Positions 1,278 through 13,345 of a DNA stretch of 39,935 nucleotides are shown here, piece by piece. The DNA lies in the NCBI GenBank assembly GCA_031270465.1, contig JAISXP010000136.1:1-39935 (forward strand). Direction: 5' to 3'. The notes beneath the pieces were generated by a model. It was not told the DNA's origin. It saw only the letters and a list, made by a program, of their open reading frames with translations, and did no database searches. The translations under genes were made by a program, and so were the position numbers. This DNA is from Tannerella sp. (lineage in GTDB: Bacteria; Bacteroidota; Bacteroidia; Bacteroidales; Tannerellaceae). Positions within the stretch are counted from its first letter, which is position 1, and every line of letters starts with the position of its first letter.

Positions 1278-2249
1278 ATGCATACAAAAAAGATTATGAA
1301 GCTATTCGATTTATTCAACAGAGAAAGGAAGGAAACGCTCGACAGGGGGCTTGCCAAAACAAAACAGAGCGTATTTGCCAAGCTGACGAAAGCCATTGTC
1401 GGGCGGAGCAGAATCGACGACGCCATCCTCGACGAACTGGAAGAAATACTGATCTCTTCGGACGTCGGCGTAGATACGACCCTCAAAATCATCGAACGCA
1501 TCGAAAAGCGCGCCGCATCCGACAGATACGTCTCCACGGACGAACTGACAGCCATCCTGCGCGAAGAGATTGCCGCACTGCTGACCGAAAACAGAACGGA
1601 AGACATGGACGATTTCACCCTCCCCGCCGACTGCCGTCCATACGTCATCATGGTCGTAGGAGTAAACGGGGTAGGGAAGACGACGACCATTGGCAAACTG
1701 GCATACCAGTTCAGAAAAAAGGAAAAGAAAGTCTTTCTGGGCGCGGCCGACACGTTCCGCGCGGCAGCCGTCGAGCAACTGACCGTCTGGAGCGAGCGCA
1801 TCGGCGTTTCTATCGTGAAACAGAAGATGGGAGCCGATCCCGCCTCGGTAGCCTACGATACGCTCAACTCGGCCAAAGCCAACAGTGCGGATGTGGTGAT
1901 CATCGACACGGCCGGGCGCCTGCACAACAAAATCGGCCTGATGAACGAACTGACCAAGATAAAGCAGGTGATGAAAAAAGTCGTCCCCGACGCGCCACAC
2001 GAAGTCCTGCTCGTCCTCGACGGCTCGACAGGACAGAACGCCTTCGAACAGGCACGGCAGTTTACCGCCGCAACCGAAGTCAATGCTCTGGCCATTACCA
2101 AACTGGACGGAACGGCAAAGGGTGGGGTCGTAATCGGCATATCCGACCATTTCCGTATACCCGTCAAATACATCGGGCTGGGCGAAGGCGTGGAAGACTT
2201 GCATGTCTTCAACAAAAAGGCATTTGTCGATTCCCTGTTTGGCGAATGA
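1278..2249 (+). CDS. ftsY: Signal recognition particle receptor FtsY
   Basis: SRP GTPase motifs GVNGVGKTTTIGKLA, GAADTFRAAAVEQL, DTAGRLHNK, TKLDGTAKGG. The true start may be the internal ATG at 1296 (MKLFDLFNRERKETLDRGL). Confidence 0.95.
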   Translation: MHTKKIMKLFDLFNRERKETLDRGLAKTKQSVFAKLTKAIVGRSRIDDAILDELEEILISSDVGVDTTLKIIERIEKRAASDRYVSTDELTAILREEIAALLTENRTEDMDDFTLPADCRPYVIMVVGVNGVGKTTTIGKLAYQFRKKEKKVFLGAADTFRAAAVEQLTVWSERIGVSIVKQKMGADPASVAYDTLNSAKANSADVVIIDTAGRLHNKIGLMNELTKIKQVMKKVVPDAPHEVLLVLDGSTGQNAFEQARQFTAATEVNALAITKLDGTAKGGVVIGISDHFRIPVKYIGLGEGVEDLHVFNKKAFVDSLFGE

Positions 2250-3586
2250 GAAAAAACAGAGTCGACATCATCACGCTGGGCTGCTCCAAAAACCTTGTCG
2301 ATACGGAACGGCTGATGTGCCAGTTCCGCCTGAACGGATATACCGTTGCCCACGACCCGGCGAAGGTGAACGGCGAAATCGTCATCGTCAACACATGCGC
2401 CTTCATCGGCGACGCACAGGAAGAATCCGTCAACGCCATCCTTGACCTCGAAGACGCAAAACGGCGGGGCAGCATCGGCAAACTGTTCGTCATGGGATGC
2501 CTGTCCGAACGCTTCAGGGACGAGTTGCAGAAAGAACTGCCTTTCGTCGACAGGTTTTACGGCAAATTCAACTGGAAGGAACTCCTGCACGACCTCGGCA
2601 AGCCCTATCATCAGACACATGCCGCTGACCGCGTCATTACCACGCCGCCGCACTACGCCTATCTGAAAATCTCGGAAGGCTGCGACCGTACATGCGCCTA
2701 CTGCTCCATTCCCTTCATCACGGGCAGGCACAGGTCGCGCCACGAAGAAGATATCCTCGACGAAGTCAGACGGCTGGTCGACAGAGGTGTGAAGGAATTT
2801 CAACTGATCGCGCAGGACCTGACGTACTACGGCATGGATCTGTATCACAAACCGTCGCTGCCCGCGCTGGTAGAAAAAATCTCGGACGTGCAGGGCGTAG
2901 AATGGATTCGCCTGCACTATGCCTATCCGTCGCACTTTCCCTTCGATTTGCTCCGTGTGATGCGCGAGCGCGACAACGTCTGCCGCTACCTCGACATCGC
3001 CCTGCAACACATCAGCGACCCGGTACTGCAGCGAATGCGCCGCAACACAAGCCGCCGCGAAACGTGGCAACTGATCGAACGGCTGCGCGACGAAGTGCCC
3101 GGCATACACCTCCGCACCACGCTGATGACAGGCTTCCCGGGCGAAACCGAACGCGATTTCGATGAATTGCTGCAATTTGTCCGCGAAGTCCGGTTCGAGC
3201 GCCTGGGCGCCTTCGCTTACAGCCACGAAAGCGGCACCTACGCCGGCGAAAACTGCTGCGACGACGTGCCCGACGACGTCAAGCGGGAACGTCTCGACTG
3301 CCTGATGCACATACAGGAAATCATCGCACGGGAACTGAACGATGAAAAAACAGGCCGCATCTATAAAACCGTCGTCGACCGCGAAGAAAGCGATTATTTC
3401 GTCGGAAGAACCGAGTTCGATTCACCCGAAGTTGACCCCGAAGTGCTGATTTCCAAAGAAAGAAGACTGAAGACAGGATGCTTCTACGATGTGGAAATCA
3501 AGTCCGCCGAAGCCTTTGAATTGTATGGTAAAATATTGAATTATCATAAAAAAAATAAACCCGCTTGCCGTATTGTGAAAAAATAA
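2246..3586 (+). CDS. rimO: Ribosomal protein S12 methylthiotransferase RimO
   Basis: N-terminal VDIITLGCSKNLVDTERL, radical SAM motif CDRTCAYCSIP, C-terminal TRAM-like end. Overlaps the ftsY stop (ATGA). Confidence 0.95.
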   Translation: MRKNRVDIITLGCSKNLVDTERLMCQFRLNGYTVAHDPAKVNGEIVIVNTCAFIGDAQEESVNAILDLEDAKRRGSIGKLFVMGCLSERFRDELQKELPFVDRFYGKFNWKELLHDLGKPYHQTHAADRVITTPPHYAYLKISEGCDRTCAYCSIPFITGRHRSRHEEDILDEVRRLVDRGVKEFQLIAQDLTYYGMDLYHKPSLPALVEKISDVQGVEWIRLHYAYPSHFPFDLLRVMRERDNVCRYLDIALQHISDPVLQRMRRNTSRRETWQLIERLRDEVPGIHLRTTLMTGFPGETERDFDELLQFVREVRFERLGAFAYSHESGTYAGENCCDDVPDDVKRERLDCLMHIQEIIARELNDEKTGRIYKTVVDREESDYFVGRTEFDSPEVDPEVLISKERRLKTGCFYDVEIKSAEAFELYGKILNYHKKNKPACRIVKK

Positions 3587-3687: not shown

Positions 3688-3993
3688 TTGAACGTACATA
3701 ATATGAAAGATGTAAATGTAACCGAAACATTGTCCTCTCGCCTCGACTGGGAAACAAAAGAAGTGGAAAGGATACTGGACGCCTTTGGCGCCATCGTCGG
3801 CGAAAAGCTGGCAAACAACGATGTGCTCAGCATGCACGGACTGGGGCAGTTTGAAGCCCGTAAAAAGGCAGAACGCGAATCCGTCAACCCCACCAACGGC
3901 AAACGTTACCTCATTCCTCCCAAATTGATCCCCGTGTTCAAACCCGTCTCGTCTTTTAAAACTTACCTTAAAATATTAGACAACAATGGATGA
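3688..3993 (+). CDS. HU/IHF-family DNA-binding protein
   Basis: About 100 aa with the HU-like pattern LSMHGLGQFEARKKAERESVNPTNGKRYLIPPKLIPVFKPVSSFK. The start may be the ATG at 3703. Confidence 0.85.
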   Translation: MNVHNMKDVNVTETLSSRLDWETKEVERILDAFGAIVGEKLANNDVLSMHGLGQFEARKKAERESVNPTNGKRYLIPPKLIPVFKPVSSFKTYLKILDNNG

Positions 3994-5614
3994 GAGATTT
4001 TCACTGTACAACATTGCAGAAATACTGTCCGAAAAGACGGGTATCAGTACGCAGGACGCGGAAAAATTCCTCGACGAACTGATCGCTGTCATCAACGAAG
4101 GAATACGGCATGACCGTTTTGTTAAGGTCAGAGGGCTTGGCGCTTTCAAAATCATACTTATGAAGGAAAGAGAGAGCGTACACGTCAATACGGGCGAACG
4201 CATCGTCATTCCCGAACACCACAAACTGGCATTTTTCCCCGAAAAAGAATTGAAAGACACGGTAAACAAACCGTTCTCGATGTTCATTCCGGAGCAGCTT
4301 CCCGACAGACCGTTATCGGAAGGCAGTCTGGTGACCGACATGCGATACGAAGGCGACGAACACGACGAAGATTTGCAAATGTTACCGGAGGAAGATACGG
4401 TACTGTTGCCTCCTCCCGTGCCGGAAAACGTGCCGCAGGAAGATGCGGACGAAGAAACCTCGCTTGTCACTCCACCGCCACCGCCGGCGCTGAAAGAAAC
4501 CGTGTCGGAGGAAGATACGGTACTGCTGCCTCCTCCCGCGCCGGAAACCGTGCCGCAGGAAGATTCGGACGAAGAAACCTCGCTTGTCATTCCGCCGCCG
4601 CCTCCACAGCTGAAAGAAACCGTGCCGGAGGAAGATACGGTACTGCTGCCTCCTCCCGTGCCGGAAACCGTGTCGCAGGAAGATGCGGACGAAGAAACCT
4701 CGCTTGTCACTCCGCCGCCCCCGCCGCCGCTGAAAGAAACCGTGTCGGAGGAAGATACAGTACTGCTGCCTCCTCCCGCGCCGGAAAACGAGCCGCAGGA
4801 AGATGCGGACGAAGATACCTCGCTTGTCACTCCGCCACCTCCTCCGCCGCTGAAAGAAACCGTACCGGAGGAAGATGCGGACAGCGAAAAAACTTCGCTT
4901 GTCATTTCTCTTAATGCCGTCACGTCGCCTTCGCCGGGCATTGAAAGTGGCGGGGAAGAAACCGTCGTATCGACGCCTGAAAAAGAAGAACAGGCAATAG
5001 GCGATACACCGGAGGCGATGCCGAAAACGGGGAAAAAAGTGTTGTGGCCGCTGTTTGTCATTCTGGGTCTCCTGTTGCTGATTTTGGGTGGAGGCGTATG
5101 GTATTTGCTCTCGGACAACTATAACAGAAATACGATAATACGCGGCGAATCGTTTGTCTTGCCGGGCGATTCGGATGTAATAAGAGACGCGCAGGAAAAA
5201 GCCGAAGCGGCGATCTTGCCCGATTCGGCGGCTGCCGACTCCACGAAAACGTCGACGCCACCGCCTCCGGCCGGAAAAGAAAATGCAGGCAAAAAAGTAA
5301 ATACGAAACAGGCCACACCGATAACGTCGCAGTCAGGTGACGCATCGAACGGCAACGAGATAATAGCCAAAGTGAAAATGACGCAGGGACAGCGACTGAC
5401 GCTGCTCTCGCTGAAATATTACGAAAACAAGATTTTTTGGGTATACATATATGAATACAACAAGTCGAAAATAGGCGCCGACCCGAACAGGATTCCCGTC
5501 GGGATGGAAATATCGATTCCGGCAAAGCGCATTTACGGTATTGATGCCAATAATGAGGCGTCGGTCAGAAAAGCGCAACAACGGCAGGACACAATCATTT
5601 CAGGACTGAAATAA
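3986..5614 (+). CDS. HU-domain protein with Pro/Glu repeat linker, one TM helix and C-terminal LysM-like domain
   Basis: N-terminal HU pattern (VKVRGLGAFKIILMKERESVHVNTGERIVIPEHHKLAFFPEKELKD). Four-plus 40-aa repeats. TM segment VLWPLFVILGLLLLILGGGVWYLL. C-terminal MTQGQRLTLLSLKYYENKIFWVYIYEYNKSKIGADPNRIPVGMEISIP resembles LysM. Confidence 0.85.
   Translation: MDERFSLYNIAEILSEKTGISTQDAEKFLDELIAVINEGIRHDRFVKVRGLGAFKIILMKERESVHVNTGERIVIPEHHKLAFFPEKELKDTVNKPFSMFIPEQLPDRPLSEGSLVTDMRYEGDEHDEDLQMLPEEDTVLLPPPVPENVPQEDADEETSLVTPPPPPALKETVSEEDTVLLPPPAPETVPQEDSDEETSLVIPPPPPQLKETVPEEDTVLLPPPVPETVSQEDADEETSLVTPPPPPPLKETVSEEDTVLLPPPAPENEPQEDADEDTSLVTPPPPPPLKETVPEEDADSEKTSLVISLNAVTSPSPGIESGGEETVVSTPEKEEQAIGDTPEAMPKTGKKVLWPLFVILGLLLLILGGGVWYLLSDNYNRNTIIRGESFVLPGDSDVIRDAQEKAEAAILPDSAAADSTKTSTPPPPAGKENAGKKVNTKQATPITSQSGDASNGNEIIAKVKMTQGQRLTLLSLKYYENKIFWVYIYEYNKSKIGADPNRIPVGMEISIPAKRIYGIDANNEASVRKAQQRQDTIISGLK
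4388..4915 (+). repeat. 120-bp in-frame coding repeat (about 4.4 units) encoding EEDTVLLPPPxPExxPQEDADEETSLVxPPPPPxLKETVx
   Basis: Units at 4388-4507, 4508-4627, 4628-4747 and 4748-4867, plus a partial unit, by direct alignment. Confidence 0.93.
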
Positions 5615-5754: not shown

Positions 5755-6750
5755 ATGAATCAGACAGTAGATATCAGAGAATTGAATGAACGAATAGAAA
5801 ACAACAGTTCGTTCGTGAATGTGATTACGATGGGAATGAATCAGGTAATCGTAGGTCAGAAACATTTGATTGAATCGTTGTTGATAGGATTGCTTTCTGA
5901 CGGACATATTCTCCTCGAAGGCGTTCCCGGACTGGCTAAGACGTTGGCAATAAAGACGCTTTCGTCGCTGATTGACGCCAAATACAGCCGTATACAGTTT
6001 ACCCCAGACCTGTTGCCGGCAGACGTCATCGGCACGATGATATACAGCCAGAAAAGTGAAGAGTTTTTGGTAAAGCAGGGGCCTGTTTTCGCTAATTTTA
6101 TTCTTGCGGACGAAATCAACCGTGCGCCGGCTAAGGTTCAGAGCGCACTGCTCGAGGCCATGCAGGAGCATCAGGTGACCATCGGCGAAACAACCTACAA
6201 ACTGCCCGAACCGTTCCTCGTGATGGCTACGCAAAATCCCATCGAACAGGAAGGTACGTATCCGTTGCCCGAAGCGCAAGTCGACCGTTTCATGCTGAAA
6301 GTAGTTATTAATTATCCGAACAAGGAAGAAGAAAAACAAATTATCCGTCAGAACATTTCGGGCGAGACGATTACGCCCAAACCCGTTCTGGATGCGCAGA
6401 AGATTCTCGAAGCGCGCAAAATCGTCCGCGAAGTCTATCTGGACGAAAAAATCGGACGCTATATTGTCGACATCGTTTTTGCGACACGCTACCCGAATGA
6501 ACATAACCTTCCCGGGCTTGCAAACATGATTGCCTTTGCGGCATCGCCCCGTGCCTCCATCAACCTTGCCGCCGCAGCCCGCGCATACGCCTTTATCAAG
6601 CGCAGGGGATATGTGATTCCCGAAGACGTGCGCACCGTGTGTCACGACGTGATGCGACACCGCATCGGGCTGAGCTACGAAGCCGAAGCCAACAACCTGA
6701 CGGCCGATGAAATCGTCAGTGAAATATTAAACAAAATCGAAGTCCCTTGA
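5755..6750 (+). CDS. MoxR-family AAA+ ATPase
   Basis: LLEGVPGLAKTLAIKTL, FVLADEINRAPAK-type Walker motifs (FILADEINRAPAKVQSALLEAMQE), ATQNPIEQEGTYPLPEAQVDRFMLK. Confidence 0.95.
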   Translation: MNQTVDIRELNERIENNSSFVNVITMGMNQVIVGQKHLIESLLIGLLSDGHILLEGVPGLAKTLAIKTLSSLIDAKYSRIQFTPDLLPADVIGTMIYSQKSEEFLVKQGPVFANFILADEINRAPAKVQSALLEAMQEHQVTIGETTYKLPEPFLVMATQNPIEQEGTYPLPEAQVDRFMLKVVINYPNKEEEKQIIRQNISGETITPKPVLDAQKILEARKIVREVYLDEKIGRYIVDIVFATRYPNEHNLPGLANMIAFAASPRASINLAAAARAYAFIKRRGYVIPEDVRTVCHDVMRHRIGLSYEAEANNLTADEIVSEILNKIEVP

Positions 6751-6792: not shown

Positions 6793-7662
6793 ATGGAAGC
6801 AAGTGAACTGCTAAAAAAAGTCCGACAGATTGAAATCAAGACGCGGGGGCTTTCGCGCAACGTCTTTGCCGGCCAATATCATTCCGCTTTCAAAGGCAGG
6901 GGAATGGCCTTCAGCGAAGTGCGCGAATACCAGTTTGGCGACGACGTCAGGGATATTGACTGGAACGTCACGGCCCGCTACGTGCGCCCGTATGTTAAGA
7001 TTTATGAAGAAGAACGAGAATTGACCGTGGTGCTTATGATCGACGTATCCGGCAGCAAGGATTTCGGTACCGTGTCGCAGATGAAAAAAGATGTAGTCAC
7101 CGAAATAGCTGCTACGCTGGCATTCTCGGCTATACAGAACAACGATAAAATCGGCGTAATCTTCTTCTCGGACAAGATAGAGAAATTCATTCCCCCGCAA
7201 AAGGGACGGCGACATATCCTGTATATCATACGCGAATTAATTGATTTTCATCCCGACGATAAAAAGACGGACATCAGTCAGGCGTTGAAATACCTGACCA
7301 ATGCCATCAAAAAACGAAGTACGGCATTCCTGATTTCCGATTTCATTGATAAAAACAGTTATCAGGACGCCCTCACCATTGCCAACCGCAAACACGATGT
7401 AGTTGCCATTCAGGTATATGACGGTCGTGAAACGGAATTGCCGAAAGTCGGACTTGTCAAAATAAAGGATGCCGAGACCGGCGCCGAACGGTGGATAGAC
7501 AGTTCGTCGAGACGTGTCCGCGACGCCTACAAAACGTGGTGGAACAAACGGCAGGAAGAGATGGAAAATTCGTTTAAGAAATGCCGGGTTGACGCTGTTT
7601 CGGTACGGACGGAAGACGATTACGTGAAAGCGCTGCTTACACTTTTCAGTAAACGAAATTGA
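6793..7662 (+). CDS. DUF58 domain-containing protein
   Basis: GRGMAFSEVREYQFGDDVRDIDWNVTARYVRPYVKIYEEERELTVVLMIDVSGS is typical of DUF58; it follows moxR. Confidence 0.93.
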   Translation: MEASELLKKVRQIEIKTRGLSRNVFAGQYHSAFKGRGMAFSEVREYQFGDDVRDIDWNVTARYVRPYVKIYEEERELTVVLMIDVSGSKDFGTVSQMKKDVVTEIAATLAFSAIQNNDKIGVIFFSDKIEKFIPPQKGRRHILYIIRELIDFHPDDKKTDISQALKYLTNAIKKRSTAFLISDFIDKNSYQDALTIANRKHDVVAIQVYDGRETELPKVGLVKIKDAETGAERWIDSSSRRVRDAYKTWWNKRQEEMENSFKKCRVDAVSVRTEDDYVKALLTLFSKRN

Positions 7663-7668
7663 TGCGGT

Positions 7669-8691
7669 ATGAAATTAAACAAACATATAATATTATGTTC
7701 CGTATTGCTGCCGGCGCTGATGTGGCAGAGCACGAAGGCCGGCGCCCTCGAAAGCCAGATCGGCGTCCGAATCGACACCGCCGAAATTCTTATCGGCGAT
7801 CAGACGACGCTTTTCCTCAACATTACGACCGACAGAGGAAAAACGGTATACTGGCCTGTCCCTGCCGATACGTTAATAACCGGTGTGGAAGTATTGTCGC
7901 TCTCGACGCCGGACACTATCGACATAGGTAATAACCGGATAGAAATCAGGCAAAACATCCTAATAACCTCTTTCGATTCTGCGCTCTACCTGTTGCCGCC
8001 CTTCATGGTGATCGATAACGGAGACACGACCTACTCCGAACAGGTGGCGCTAAAAGTGTCGACCCTCCCTGCCAATACGGATGCCCCGAACGAATTTTTC
8101 GACATCAAAGGCGTCTGGAAGCCGCCGTTCGTATGGGCGGATTACTATCCGGTTATTTTGGGCATTTTGCTGGCGGTCATTCTGGCCATTGCTATTATTT
8201 ATATCGTCAGGCGGCTGAAAAACAGGAAGCCGCTGATTCCTGTCCGGAAAAAGGAACCGCCTCTGCTGCCTCACGAAGAGGCCGTCAGGCGATTAGACGC
8301 CATCAAGCAGCAAAAGTTATGGCAGCAGGGGAAAAACAAGGAATACCATACGCAGGTTACGGATACCCTCCGCCATTACATTTTCAGACGCTACAGAGTT
8401 AACGCAATGGAAATGACTACAAACGAGATTCTGACCGTCCTCCGGCACGAATTTGAAACCCGTTCGGCTCACGATCCGCTACGACAAATCCTGCTGCTGG
8501 CAGACTTTGTGAAATTTGCCAAACTTCATCCGCTGCCCGACGAAAACGATTTAAGTTTGAAAAATGCATATCTGTTTGTCAACCAGACCAAACAAGTTGA
8601 GGTTGTCAAGCCGTCCGAAGAATCGCCGATACAGCAGACCGGCGACGGCGAAACGAACACTACAAATTCCGGAGGAGGGGAAACGCTATGA
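7669..8691 (+). CDS. Membrane protein of the bat operon, single TM with BatD-like N-terminal region
   Basis: Signal peptide, beta-rich periplasmic part, TM VILGILLAVILAIAIIYIVRRL, cytoplasmic tail. Sits between DUF58 and batA. Confidence 0.75.
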   Translation: MKLNKHIILCSVLLPALMWQSTKAGALESQIGVRIDTAEILIGDQTTLFLNITTDRGKTVYWPVPADTLITGVEVLSLSTPDTIDIGNNRIEIRQNILITSFDSALYLLPPFMVIDNGDTTYSEQVALKVSTLPANTDAPNEFFDIKGVWKPPFVWADYYPVILGILLAVILAIAIIYIVRRLKNRKPLIPVRKKEPPLLPHEEAVRRLDAIKQQKLWQQGKNKEYHTQVTDTLRHYIFRRYRVNAMEMTTNEILTVLRHEFETRSAHDPLRQILLLADFVKFAKLHPLPDENDLSLKNAYLFVNQTKQVEVVKPSEESPIQQTGDGETNTTNSGGGETL

Positions 8692-9692
8692 ACAGTATAA
8701 TATTTGCAAATTCAGCTTACCTGTACTTGTTGCTGTTGCTTATTCCGCTGACGGGCTGGTATGTATGGAAGATGCACAGAAATCATGCAAGCATACAGTT
8801 CTCCTCGTCGCAGGCTTTTGACGCGCCGGGGACGTCGACTTTGAAGGTCTGGCTGCGCCATTTGCCCTTTGCATTGCGTACGCTTGCCATCGCCTGCCTG
8901 ATAGTGGTGCTGGCGCGACCTCAATCTACCAACAGCTGGCAAAGCTCTACGACCGAGGGTATTGACATCATGCTTACGCTGGATATTTCGGCAAGCATGC
9001 TGGCAGAAGACTTGAAACCCAACCGTCTCGAAGCTGCAAAAAACGTGGCGGCCTCGTTCATCAACGGACGGCCGACCGACAACATCGGCTTAGTCATTTT
9101 TGCCGGCGAGAGTTTTACGCAGTGCCCGCTCACGATTGACCATGCCATCCTGCTGAATTTCTTCAACGACATCAACCGGAACATGATAAGCATGTTGACA
9201 GATGGCACGGCTATCGGACTGGGACTGGCAAATGCCGTCAGCCGCATCAAGGACAGCCAGGCCAAGTCGAAAGTCATCATTCTGCTGACGGACGGCTCTA
9301 ACAACAGAGGAGAAATCGCCCCCGTGACGGCTGCAGAAATAGCCAAAACTTTCGGCATCAGGGTATACACCATCGGCGTAGGAAAAAAAGGCGAAGCGCC
9401 GTATCCTTTCCAGACAGCTAATGGTGTAATTTACAGGAATGTACCTGTGGATATCGACGAAAATACGTTGCAGCAGATAGCGACTGCCACGGGCGGACAG
9501 TATTTCCGTGCAACGGACAACGCCAGCCTGCGAGACATCTACGCCGAAATTGACCGAATGGAAAAAACAAAGATAAACGTGCAGGAATACAGCAAAAAAC
9601 AGGAAGAATACAAATACGCGGCGCTTATCGTGTTCGGCCTGCTGCTGCTCGAAATACTGCTCAGATATACATTATTTAGAAAGATACCGTAA
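8688..9692 (+). CDS. batA: Aerotolerance protein BatA, VWA domain
   Basis: IDIMLTLDISASMLAEDLKPNRLEAAK (MIDAS DxSxS), N- and C-terminal TM segments, position in operon. Confidence 0.9.
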   Translation: MNSIIFANSAYLYLLLLLIPLTGWYVWKMHRNHASIQFSSSQAFDAPGTSTLKVWLRHLPFALRTLAIACLIVVLARPQSTNSWQSSTTEGIDIMLTLDISASMLAEDLKPNRLEAAKNVAASFINGRPTDNIGLVIFAGESFTQCPLTIDHAILLNFFNDINRNMISMLTDGTAIGLGLANAVSRIKDSQAKSKVIILLTDGSNNRGEIAPVTAAEIAKTFGIRVYTIGVGKKGEAPYPFQTANGVIYRNVPVDIDENTLQQIATATGGQYFRATDNASLRDIYAEIDRMEKTKINVQEYSKKQEEYKYAALIVFGLLLLEILLRYTLFRKIP

Positions 9693-9710
9693 CAAAAAAG
9701 GAGAAAAATC

Positions 9711-10727
9711 ATGTTTCGTTTTGCAAATCCCGAATTTCTGTATCTGCTCTCGGCACTTCCCGTGCTGATTGTATTATATATATATGTAGTCCTTGCAAAC
9801 AGGAAGGCGCTCCGAAAATACGGCGAACCCGCGCTTATTTCGCAGCTGATGCCCGAAGTATCGCCCAAAAGACAGCATGCAAAATTCTGGCTGCTGTTCA
9901 CTGCCATAGCTGTTACTGTTTTTGTGATTGCAGGGCCGCAGTTTGGCTCTAAGCTGGAAACTGTCAAGCGTCAGGGCATCGAAATCGTAGTCTGTTTGGA
10001 TGTCTCCAATTCGATGATGGCGGAAGATATCAGACCCAACCGCCTCGAGAAAGCCAAACAGATGCTATCCATCATGACGGACGGCTTCTCGAACGACAAG
10101 GTCGGACTGATCGTCTTTGCAGGCGATGCCTTTACGCAGTTGCCGATTACGTCCGATTACATCTCCGCCAAGATGTTTCTCTCGTCCATCAATCCCTCGA
10201 TGGTTTCGTCGCAGGGAACGGCGATTGAAAGAGCTATCAGCCTCGCCGAGCGTTCGTTTACGCCGAACGAAGCATCAAGCAAGGCCATTCTGATTATTAC
10301 CGACGGCGAAAACCACGAAGGAGATGCCGTGAAGGCAGCAACCAATGCAGCAGAAAAAAACATCAAGATACATGTCGTAGGCATCGGCTCTCCGCAGGGC
10401 GAACCCATCCCCGTCGACGGGAACAATTTCATGAAAGACAGCGAAGGCAATACCGTAGTGACGAAACTGAACGAACAGATGTGTAAAGAGATTGCGGCCG
10501 CGGGACAGGGCATTTATGTGCGTGCCGAAAACAACAACGCAGCATTGCGTACGCTTCAGGCCGAAATAAATAAAATGGACAAGACCGAAATGGACAGCAA
10601 AGTCTATTCGGAATACGACGAACAGTTCCACGTGCTGGCATGGCTCGCTTTGGCGCTGCTGACAGTCGAACTCCTGATGCTGGAACGTAAAAACAGATTA
10701 TTCAGAAAAGTGAAATTATTTTCTTAA
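9711..10727 (+). CDS. batB: Aerotolerance protein BatB, VWA domain
   Basis: IEIVVCLDVSNSMMAEDIRPNRLEKAKQ, paralogous to BatA; operon order. Confidence 0.9.
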   Translation: MFRFANPEFLYLLSALPVLIVLYIYVVLANRKALRKYGEPALISQLMPEVSPKRQHAKFWLLFTAIAVTVFVIAGPQFGSKLETVKRQGIEIVVCLDVSNSMMAEDIRPNRLEKAKQMLSIMTDGFSNDKVGLIVFAGDAFTQLPITSDYISAKMFLSSINPSMVSSQGTAIERAISLAERSFTPNEASSKAILIITDGENHEGDAVKAATNAAEKNIKIHVVGIGSPQGEPIPVDGNNFMKDSEGNTVVTKLNEQMCKEIAAAGQGIYVRAENNNAALRTLQAEINKMDKTEMDSKVYSEYDEQFHVLAWLALALLTVELLMLERKNRLFRKVKLFS

Positions 10728-10736
10728 TGGATTGAA

Positions 10737-11504
10737 ATGATGAAGATAACGCGTACGACAATTATTGGATCAGCAGCCTGCTTTCTGTGTGTTGGCATGA
10801 CATTCGGACAGAAAGCCGAACGCAAGCATATCCGCGAAGGGAATAAGTTGTATAGGAACGAAAAATATACCGAAGCGGAGATTGCATATCGAAAAAGCAA
10901 GGACGTAAATCCCCGCTCGATAGAAGGTGCATACGATTTGGGAAACGCGCTGTACAGGCAGCAGAAATTTCCCGAAGCCGCCGAACAGTACAAGTCGGTG
11001 AGCGACCAGAAACAGCGTCTGATAGAGGAAGACAAAGCGAAGAATACCCTCCGCATGGCGCAGGTCTACCACAATACGGGCAATATCGGCATGAACGCTG
11101 CGCTTACAGCCCGCAACGCCGGCGATATCGGTGCGAGCAATCAGGAGTATGCCAAAAGCATCGAAGCATACAAGGCGTCGCTGCGTCTGAATCCGAAAGA
11201 CGACGAAACGCGCTACAACCTCGCCCTGGCGCAAAAAATGCTTCAAAACCAGCAAAATGAAGACCAGCAGCAGCAACAGCAGGATCAACAGGACAAGCAA
11301 AACGAGGAACAGCAGCAACAACAACAACAGCAGCAGGACCAGCCTCAAAAAACGCAGGAAGAACAAAAGCAAAACGAACAAATGAGCGAAGACAATGCCC
11401 AACAGATTCTGGACGCCTTCCTGCAGGATGAAAAAGATACGCAGGAAAAAATAAAACAGGCGCAGAAACAGCAGCAGCGTCGCCGGTCGGATAAACAATG
11501 GTAA
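10737..11504 (+). CDS. batC: BatC, TPR protein with poly-Gln tail
   Basis: TPR pattern (ALYRQQKFPEAAEQYKS…, SIEAYKASLRLNPKDDETRYNLALAQ) with a Q-rich C-terminus; operon order. Confidence 0.87.
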   Translation: MMKITRTTIIGSAACFLCVGMTFGQKAERKHIREGNKLYRNEKYTEAEIAYRKSKDVNPRSIEGAYDLGNALYRQQKFPEAAEQYKSVSDQKQRLIEEDKAKNTLRMAQVYHNTGNIGMNAALTARNAGDIGASNQEYAKSIEAYKASLRLNPKDDETRYNLALAQKMLQNQQNEDQQQQQQDQQDKQNEEQQQQQQQQQDQPQKTQEEQKQNEQMSEDNAQQILDAFLQDEKDTQEKIKQAQKQQQRRRSDKQW

Positions 11505-11521
11505 AATATAAAAGACAAGAT

Positions 11522-13345
11522 ATGAGACAACGGTTCATCTTCTTATTAATAATACTCTTATCTTTGGGTGGCACGCAACTGAAAGCGGACGACGTGGTTT
11601 TCAAAGCCTCCGCCCCCGAAGCCGTCCCCATGGGCGAACAATTCAGGCTGACTTATCAAATCAATTCCGAAGCCACAGAACTCCGTGCGCCCGACATGAA
11701 CGATTTTGAAGTACTGACAGGTCCCCATTCTTCGACGAGCAGGAACATACAGATTAGCGGCAGTTCGTCAACAAGCGTATTTTCGTTGACATTCACATAT
11801 ATCCTGATGCCCAAAAGTGAAGGAACCTTCAATATTCCGCCCGCAACCATCAAGGTGAAAAATTCGACATACACATCCAATGCACTTGTAATAAAGGTGC
11901 TGCCTCCCAATTCCAAAACTTCCGGCGGACAAAGTCAGAGCGGCGTATCCGTCGGAAACATCACGAACGATGACCTGTTCGTCCGCATGATCGTCTCGAA
12001 CAGGAACATGTACGAACAGGAAGGCATCCTCGTCACTTTCAAACTTTACGTGGCGGCCGAAGGACTGAACGAGGTAAGCATTCCGAATCTGAAATATCCT
12101 GAATTTGAAGGTTTTTTTGTGAACGACATCGACATTGGCCAGTCGCAGTGGAAACTGGAAAACTACAACGGACGGAACTACAACACCGCCGTCATGAAAC
12201 AATCCATCCTGTTTCCGCAACATTCCGGAAAAATCACGATCGGAAGCGGTCGTTTCGAGGCCGTCGTACGCGTCCGGACGCAAAAGCGGGTGCGCAGTTT
12301 TTTTGACGATAGATTCTCCTATCAGGATTTCAACAAGGAACTTGTGAGCCAGCCAGTCACCATCGACGTCAAGCCGCTGCCTTCGGGCAAGCCTGCTTCG
12401 TTTTCGGGCGCGGTCGGAAACTATACGATGAAAACCACCATAAATTCCAGCCACATAAAAGCAAATGAAGCCGTTACTGTCAAAGTGGTGCTCAACGGAA
12501 CAGGCAACATCAAAGTAGTCAAAAATCCCGAAGTCGTCTTTCCGAATGATTTCGACATATACGATCCCAAAGTCGACTCGAAAATCACAACGACAGCAGG
12601 TGGCACAAACGGTACGAAGACAATCGAATACATGGCGATTCCCCGATACGGGGGCGATTTTGAAATCCCGGCCGTGAAATTTTCCTATTTCGATCCACAG
12701 TCGGGAACATACAAAACCCTTAGCTCGGAATCGTTTAATTTACAGGTAGATAAAGAAGAGGGTAGGGGAGGGGAGTCCTCGCCGGTCGTATCCAATTTCA
12801 GCAACAGGCAGAACCTGAACCTCCTCGGCGAGGACATCCGCTACATCAAATTGTTGAACGTGCATTTCGTGCAGAGCAGGGATATTTTCTTCGGCTCAGT
12901 CACTTACGTCCTGTCGTATGCAGTCGTTGCCTTTCTTTTCATTCTGTTTTTCTTTATTTACCGTAAACAGGTGAAAGAGAATGCAAACATCGCTCTGGTA
13001 CGGACGAAAAAAGCCAACAAAACGGCTGTGCGGCGATTGAAGGCAGCGAAAAAACTGCTCAAGGAACACAGAAAGGAAGCATTTTACGAAGAAATACTTC
13101 GCACCGTATGGGGCTATTTGAGCGACAAGTTGAATATTCCGCTTGCCGATTTGACAAGAGAAAACATCGAGGCAGAACTCTTTAAATACGGCGTAGATGA
13201 ATCGCTGTCAAAAGAATATATGGATATTCTGAATGTCTGTGAATTTGCCCGTTATGCGCCGAGTCAGGTGTCGGACACCATGGATCAATTGTTCAAACAA
13301 ACGGGAGATGCCATATCCAAAATGGAAAATACCATTAAAAAATGA
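11522..13345 (+). CDS. batD: BatD protein
   Basis: Signal peptide MRQRFIFLLIILLSLGGTQLKADD, large beta-rich periplasmic region, C-terminal TM. The ORF track starts at 11498; 11522 is preferred because it begins the signal peptide. Confidence 0.88.
   Translation: MRQRFIFLLIILLSLGGTQLKADDVVFKASAPEAVPMGEQFRLTYQINSEATELRAPDMNDFEVLTGPHSSTSRNIQISGSSSTSVFSLTFTYILMPKSEGTFNIPPATIKVKNSTYTSNALVIKVLPPNSKTSGGQSQSGVSVGNITNDDLFVRMIVSNRNMYEQEGILVTFKLYVAAEGLNEVSIPNLKYPEFEGFFVNDIDIGQSQWKLENYNGRNYNTAVMKQSILFPQHSGKITIGSGRFEAVVRVRTQKRVRSFFDDRFSYQDFNKELVSQPVTIDVKPLPSGKPASFSGAVGNYTMKTTINSSHIKANEAVTVKVVLNGTGNIKVVKNPEVVFPNDFDIYDPKVDSKITTTAGGTNGTKTIEYMAIPRYGGDFEIPAVKFSYFDPQSGTYKTLSSESFNLQVDKEEGRGGESSPVVSNFSNRQNLNLLGEDIRYIKLLNVHFVQSRDIFFGSVTYVLSYAVVAFLFILFFFIYRKQVKENANIALVRTKKANKTAVRRLKAAKKLLKEHRKEAFYEEILRTVWGYLSDKLNIPLADLTRENIEAELFKYGVDESLSKEYMDILNVCEFARYAPSQVSDTMDQLFKQTGDAISKMENTIKK

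Follow-up and report, generated by a model that had tools for sequence, protein, structure and literature searches.

The window analysed here, a stretch of 39,935 nucleotides from Tannerella sp., contains two overlapping genes whose products may together form an HU heterodimer that links the nucleoid to the cell envelope, a reading on which we are about evenly divided. The first gene encodes a free small HU/IHF-family protein, and the second encodes a protein, here called the tether, in which an HU domain, an acidic linker, a transmembrane helix and a LysM domain follow each other on one polypeptide (Table 1). The folds at both ends of the tether, its single transmembrane segment, its N-in orientation (by the charge rule), the gene overlap and the co-inheritance of the two genes are all read from the sequence or from structural models. 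The sequence-only reading had seen in the tether one polypeptide that could connect nucleoid and wall; the anatomy fits this idea, but the unit probably consists of two proteins, the tether and the free HU, and the free HU gene directly upstream had been absent from that reading.

Table 1. Features of the HU gene pair and its neighbours (nucleotide positions in the window; residue numbers refer to the tether)
Feature	Positions	Strand	Basis and remarks
ftsY, conserved upstream neighbour in Bacteroidales	1278..2249	+	TIGR00064 E=6.4e-105; synteny
rimO (start approximate), conserved upstream neighbour	2243..3586	+	TIGR01125 E=1.6e-129; synteny
Small HU/IHF-family protein of 96 aa, free; upstream gene of the pair	3703..3993	+	PF00216 E=3.8e-18; best PDB match Thermotoga HU 1riy
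8-nt overlap of the free HU and tether genes	3986..3993	+	ATGGATGA: start of tether, stop of small HU
Tether protein (HU, acidic linker, TM, LysM)	3986..5614	+	542 aa; ORF and full-length AlphaFold model
HU/IHF domain of the tether	3986..4285	+	residues 1-100; PF00216 E=6.8e-18; arm tip HVNTGE instead of NPxTGx
Acidic/Pro-rich cytoplasmic linker, disordered	4286..5038	+	residues 101-351; pLDDT mostly <55; composition
Four 120-nt (40-aa) tandem repeats in the linker	4385..4880	+	TRF: 4.1 copies, 90% matches, score 817
Transmembrane helix	5045..5122	+	residues 354-379, KTGKK just before; hydropathy, K/R flank counts, model helix
Predicted periplasmic spacer, Ala/Ser/Thr/Pro-rich	5123..5350	+	mostly low pLDDT
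LysM domain	5360..5536	+	residues 459-517, VKMTQGQRLTLLSLKYYENKIFWVYIYEYNK..IPVGMEISIP; profile vs PDB, AlphaFold, Foldseek
Conserved C-terminal helix after LysM	5555..5608	+	residues 524-541; model; S526, A530, Q534 invariant or nearly so
MoxR-type AAA ATPase, at the start of the Bat-like cluster downstream	5755..6750	+	PF07726 E=1.4e-66; synteny

The order of domains that had been proposed for 3986-5614, with an HU domain, a linker, a transmembrane helix and a LysM-like segment, holds on the evidence of one 542-aa ORF, of Pfam and of AlphaFold. The ORF is intact and begins with an ATG, and M1 is invariant in an alignment of 70 sequences of relatives. In the AlphaFold model, which was built with 70 family members, the HU domain (residues 11-90) and the C-terminal domain (459-541) are confident, residues 105-350 are disordered, and a transmembrane helix spans 354-379. 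Relatives were found by alignment query; a single-protein contig scan gave none, its patterns lying largely in the variable linker. A long antisense ORF (3976-5118, minus strand), which faces the GC-rich repeats on the other strand, was not accepted as a gene, and a weak LPXTG-anchor-like match of the tether in NCBIfam was set aside as a chance match from the transmembrane and Pro-rich stretch. A literature search for HU together with LysM or CCDC81 in Bacteroidetes turned up no relevant paper, and the papers on Porphyromonas HU held nothing bearing on the tether gene.

The coupling of the two genes is strict. In every one of the 78 relatives measured, the small HU gene immediately precedes the tether gene, and the two overlap by 8 nt in 66 and by 4 nt in 9 of these 78, while in the control measurements the gap from rimO to the small HU gene has an SD of 235 nt, with 46 values at 73 loci, and that from the tether to MoxR an SD of 147 nt, with 39 values at 63 loci. 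The same arrangement was seen at 48 further tether loci, which come from other Bacteroidales families and from a family of another Bacteroidota class (f24), and a few of which duplicate earlier members: the small HU gene is upstream on the same strand in 48/48, and nearly all overlap by 4, 8 or 11 nt. In a tree of the HU domains, the tethered copies (58/58) form one clade (0.98) and the free copies (58/58) another (0.79), and both clades span both classes. From these sequences, the free HU and the tether share a long history of joint inheritance or joint transfer. Because the overlap is conserved and the two co-inherited proteins are members of a dimer-forming family, we infer that they probably form an obligate heterodimer, for which IHF, in which two related subunits likewise depend on each other for dimer formation, offers a parallel.

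The N-terminal HU/IHF-type fold of the tether, noted before from the letters of the DNA, is borne out by its Pfam match, which spans residues 10-94, and by an AlphaFold core with pLDDT of about 93-97; the fold covers approximately residues 1-97 with the helix-helix-sheet-arm pattern, and the only other Pfam match in the tether is a weak one to HU-HIG. The arms of the two HU proteins have diverged. The intercalating proline at the arm tip is present in 75/79 free HUs and in only 1/79 tethered ones, which carry V, I or A instead in Bacteroidales according to the column statistics, and this pattern reads as complementary specialisation. The arm-tip proline is not universal among HU-fold proteins, and its loss in the tether limits the claim of DNA bending, not the membership in PF00216. 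For the other residues we used the DNA-contact positions that we take from general knowledge of HU-DNA complexes, in an alignment with solved HUs. The tethered HU of the window retains R62, K87 and K90, equivalent to HU R58, K83 and K86, and has I, M, V and F at the positions equivalent to HU 53, 55, 61 and 80, so that the arm arginines at 53, 55 and 61 are missing. The outcome for the DNA-binding residues, on which the sequence-only reading had staked its proposal, is therefore split, since the fold and three basic residues were kept whereas the intercalating proline and the arm arginines were lost. In view of these losses, DNA binding by the tethered HU domain alone is doubtful, and the nearly neutral or acidic character of a domain lacking most arm arginines (net charge -2 in the window, family mean +1.4) counts against the proposed linker. 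The free HU of the window, in turn, keeps the basic residues equivalent to HU 53, 55, 58, 80 and 86 along with the arm-tip proline, and its net charge is +3 (family mean +5). It retains most of the features lost in the tether and is likely the DNA-binding partner, and the simplest reading would be an asymmetric dimer with the canonical arm on the free subunit.

The same losses can be taken further, and the tethered HU may have given up DNA binding altogether. It would then serve in protein interaction, either by bringing the free HU or a different HU/IHF protein to the membrane or by organising an envelope complex. CCDC81-type HU domains have been proposed as protein-interaction domains, and the tethered arm carries a motif that is different yet highly conserved (R62, S64, H66, T69, G70, R72, H78, K80), which indicates that the arm is under selection for something. 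We nevertheless regard a purely docking role as unlikely, as R62, K87 and K90 are conserved, the new basic or histidine positions K55, R72, H78 and K80 are near-invariant, and the tethers of the other class still have NPQTGE in their HU domain. Moreover, the canonical arm kept by the partner HU could still allow the heterodimer to bind DNA.

Between the HU domain and the membrane lies a linker with a net charge of -52 over residues 105-351. The 40-aa repeats reported there are real, but they extend over about 165 aa (residues about 134-299) and not over the approximately 175 aa first given. The repeat unit is strain-specific, with a few relatives carrying other units and others none, whereas the linker is acidic in every one of 79 proteins (mean 30% D/E and 9% K/R) at lengths of 63-293 aa. 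By this comparison, the 40-aa repeat is a local way to a long acidic spacer and not its essence. The strong transmembrane helix after KTGKK was likewise recovered as the one strong hydrophobic segment and as a helix in the model, and essentially always a single hydrophobic segment is present in the 79 family members. The 15 residues before this segment contain more K/R than the 15 after it in 55 of the 79 proteins, fewer in 9 and equal numbers in 15, with means of 3.9 and 1.9, respectively, and one transmembrane segment with a K/R-rich N-flank is also found at nearly all of the 48 further loci. As the N-flank is K/R-rich and no signal peptide precedes the HU domain, HU is expected inside and LysM outside. 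The N-in topology assumed earlier is thus predicted for the whole family by the positive-inside rule, which speaks against a protein with both ends in the cytoplasm.

The C-terminus of the tether is a LysM fold, in agreement with the LysM-like segment first suspected there, although Pfam is silent on the window protein: PF01476 gave no match in it even at E<=1, and NCBIfam gave none for LysM either. Three independent lines lead to the fold. At E<=0.1, PF01476 matched 6/46 close relatives and 5/24 distant ones, the latter mostly of another class. The fold is further identified by a family profile of 69 C-terminal domains, which matched Kbp (7pvc, E=6.4e-7), a phiCD508 phage tail LysM (6.1e-6) and Ecp6 (4.2e-5) in the PDB, by the beta-alpha-alpha-beta order of the AlphaFold domain at pLDDT 94-98, and by Foldseek, whose top-ranked PDB matches are LysM-containing chains with probabilities near 1 and E-values of only 0.01-0.05. 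The modest E-values are explained by the small size of the domain; we count them, and the fact that the best sequence match is Kbp, against the proposed linker. Kbp, the nearest solved relative by sequence, is a potassium-binding protein, and the conserved core FWVYIY differs from the classic LysM motif, with a variant xLWPLIY in the other class. On these grounds the ligand may be something other than peptidoglycan, such as K+ (the ligand of Kbp), a glycoprotein or another protein, and the anchoring of DNA would then reach no further than the inner membrane or an envelope complex. We consider this quite improbable, since glycan-binding LysM proteins (Ecp6, a chitinase LysM, AtlA and the P60 LysM) are among the lower-ranked matches, and a domain placed in the periplasm at the end of a long spacer is well suited to a wall ligand. 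In one Tannerellaceae tether (L059/L174:4078-5766), LysM occurs in two or three tandem copies, with query residues 458-533 matched repeatedly and the contig ending there; some other Tannerellaceae members (L162, L169, L173 and L056) continue after LysM in long low-complexity tails rich in Tyr, Asn, Gly and Gln, which are predicted to lie in the periplasm. Another locus (L197; G493:C1 around 706695-707006, minus strand) has HU, the transmembrane segment and the overlapping small HU gene with no recognisable LysM, and it may end before the protein does.

In Bacteroidales, synteny places the HU pair between ftsY-rimO and a MoxR/DUF58/Bat-like cluster, whose genes at 6793-13345 are named from their position and general knowledge. 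Neither ftsY-rimO nor MoxR-Bat was detected beside the pair at the other-class loci examined, where the pair itself was retained. The pair is thus the likely functional unit, and ftsY-rimO and the Bat genes were rejected as parts of the system. The adjacent envelope cluster is one reason to think of a transmembrane regulator instead of a mechanical tether, in which LysM would sense wall glycan or damage and alter how the HU pair binds DNA or assembles, thereby changing transcription or local chromosome structure. The anatomy in the AlphaFold model, with HU inside, a single transmembrane helix and LysM outside, would be the same, and the strongly acidic linker could act as an autoinhibitor. Yet no adjacent target operon is conserved across the classes, where the neighbours change and the pair stays, HU proteins normally bind DNA with low specificity, and the tether has no signalling domain; we give the regulator little credence. 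A few features of the neighbourhood may be recorded separately. Upstream of ftsY, at 857-1027, eight 21-bp tandem repeats (GGGCATCTGCCTTTTCCTTTC) are 96% alike and represent a minisatellite with a frame open by chance. An IS256-type transposase-like gene, recognised by eye, lies between tether and MoxR in one genome (L189:8369-9607, f2), and in one Tannerella MAG about 1.3 kb separate the two genes (L163:8582-9897 and L054), compared with about 160 bp in relatives.

The suggestion that the architecture may recur in Bacteroidetes was confirmed. The tether is present in all 51 good genomes of the window's GTDB family, the Tannerellaceae, with Parabacteroides, Tannerella and Massilibacteroides as its named members; the window is most like MAGs of Tannerella type with neighbouring accessions, which probably come from termite guts. 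Beyond this family the distribution of the tether is patchy, with occurrences in further, scattered families of Bacteroidales and in a single family belonging to a different class of Bacteroidota: it was found in 22/148 genomes of the order-level sample, in 7/197 of the class-level sample (the window itself included) and, in the phylum sample, in 22 genomes of f24. The absence of the cassette from most sampled Bacteroidota counts against the proposed linker, and it means that chromosome anchoring in general does not depend on the cassette.

We propose the following mechanism, in which heterodimerisation, DNA binding, peptidoglycan binding and the biological role in nucleoid anchoring or segregation are inferred. 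The small HU protein encoded at 3703-3993 and the HU domain of the tether most likely pair in the cytoplasm as an asymmetric dimer of the HU/IHF type, to which the free subunit would contribute the canonical intercalating arm, and the tethered subunit the modified arm, the long disordered acidic spacer and the one transmembrane helix. The spacer probably gives reach, and as a competitor for the HU surface it may also make DNA binding weaker or subject to gating. On the periplasmic side, LysM would attach the complex to peptidoglycan, or else to a different glycan or a protein of the envelope, and the net effect would be that chromosomal DNA is kept near membrane and wall. In its strongest form, the proposal says that an obligate asymmetric HU heterodimer, half of which resides in a trans-envelope protein, fastens a nucleoid-packing complex through the inner membrane to peptidoglycan; this we advance tentatively, with somewhat less than even confidence.

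The tether resembles in outline the HU-CCDC81_bac-TM-SPOR proteins of Bacteroidetes (PF18174/PF18175 and PF05036), which likewise have an HU fold inside, one transmembrane segment and a peptidoglycan-associated domain outside; the single transmembrane segment with an N-terminal HU inside is found in the tether by K/R flanks and model. A role in chromosome partition was reportedly predicted for these proteins by Burroughs et al. in Cell Cycle in 2017. They have two divergent tandem HU domains and SPOR, whereas the tether combines a single canonical PF00216 HU with LysM and a long acidic linker, and a second HU is encoded separately by the overlapping gene. In the window tether, Pfam gave no match to PF18175, tandem CCDC81-type HU domains were not found, and at the C-terminus there was no SPOR domain but the LysM fold. 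The tether therefore stands outside this group, and the separate overlapping HU subunit and LysM are additions. The Tannerella genome itself encodes, on another contig (C98, L001:274-1335, minus strand), a second predicted HU-to-wall tether with HU-CCDC81_bac_1 and bac_2, a hydrophobic segment and SPOR (PF18174 1.3e-22, PF18175 1.9e-12, PF05036 1.6e-5). With the nucleoid proteins HU and IHF, the pair shares fold and Pfam family, but a membrane anchor and a wall-binding domain are fused to one subunit, whose arm tip is not proline. With LysM proteins such as Kbp/YgaU, phage tail LysM and MltD-type enzymes, the tether shares the C-terminal beta-alpha-alpha-beta fold; it differs from them in the divergent FWVYIY core, the extra conserved C-terminal helix, the lack of an enzyme domain and the cytoplasmic HU joined on. 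The RacA, SpoIIIE/FtsK and PopZ/TipN systems are chromosome-envelope tethers to which we see an analogy of function only, with no sequence relation claimed, and to our knowledge none of the known tethers of this kind uses an HU domain together with a cell-wall-binding domain.

Little is known of how the chromosome is placed relative to the envelope in bacteria that lack well-studied systems of the Min, RacA or PopZ type, and the Bacteroidota are dominant gut bacteria. A gene pair that is universal in Tannerellaceae, is present in culturable Parabacteroides and Tannerella, and would join an HU dimer to a wall-binding domain is a direct and testable candidate. Given how strictly the two genes overlap, heterodimerisation is a sharp and cheap prediction. 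Fusion of HU to the wall would occur in at least two predicted forms, with SPOR and with LysM, within one genome. If the proposal is true, histone-like proteins would here connect the chromosome directly to the cell wall.
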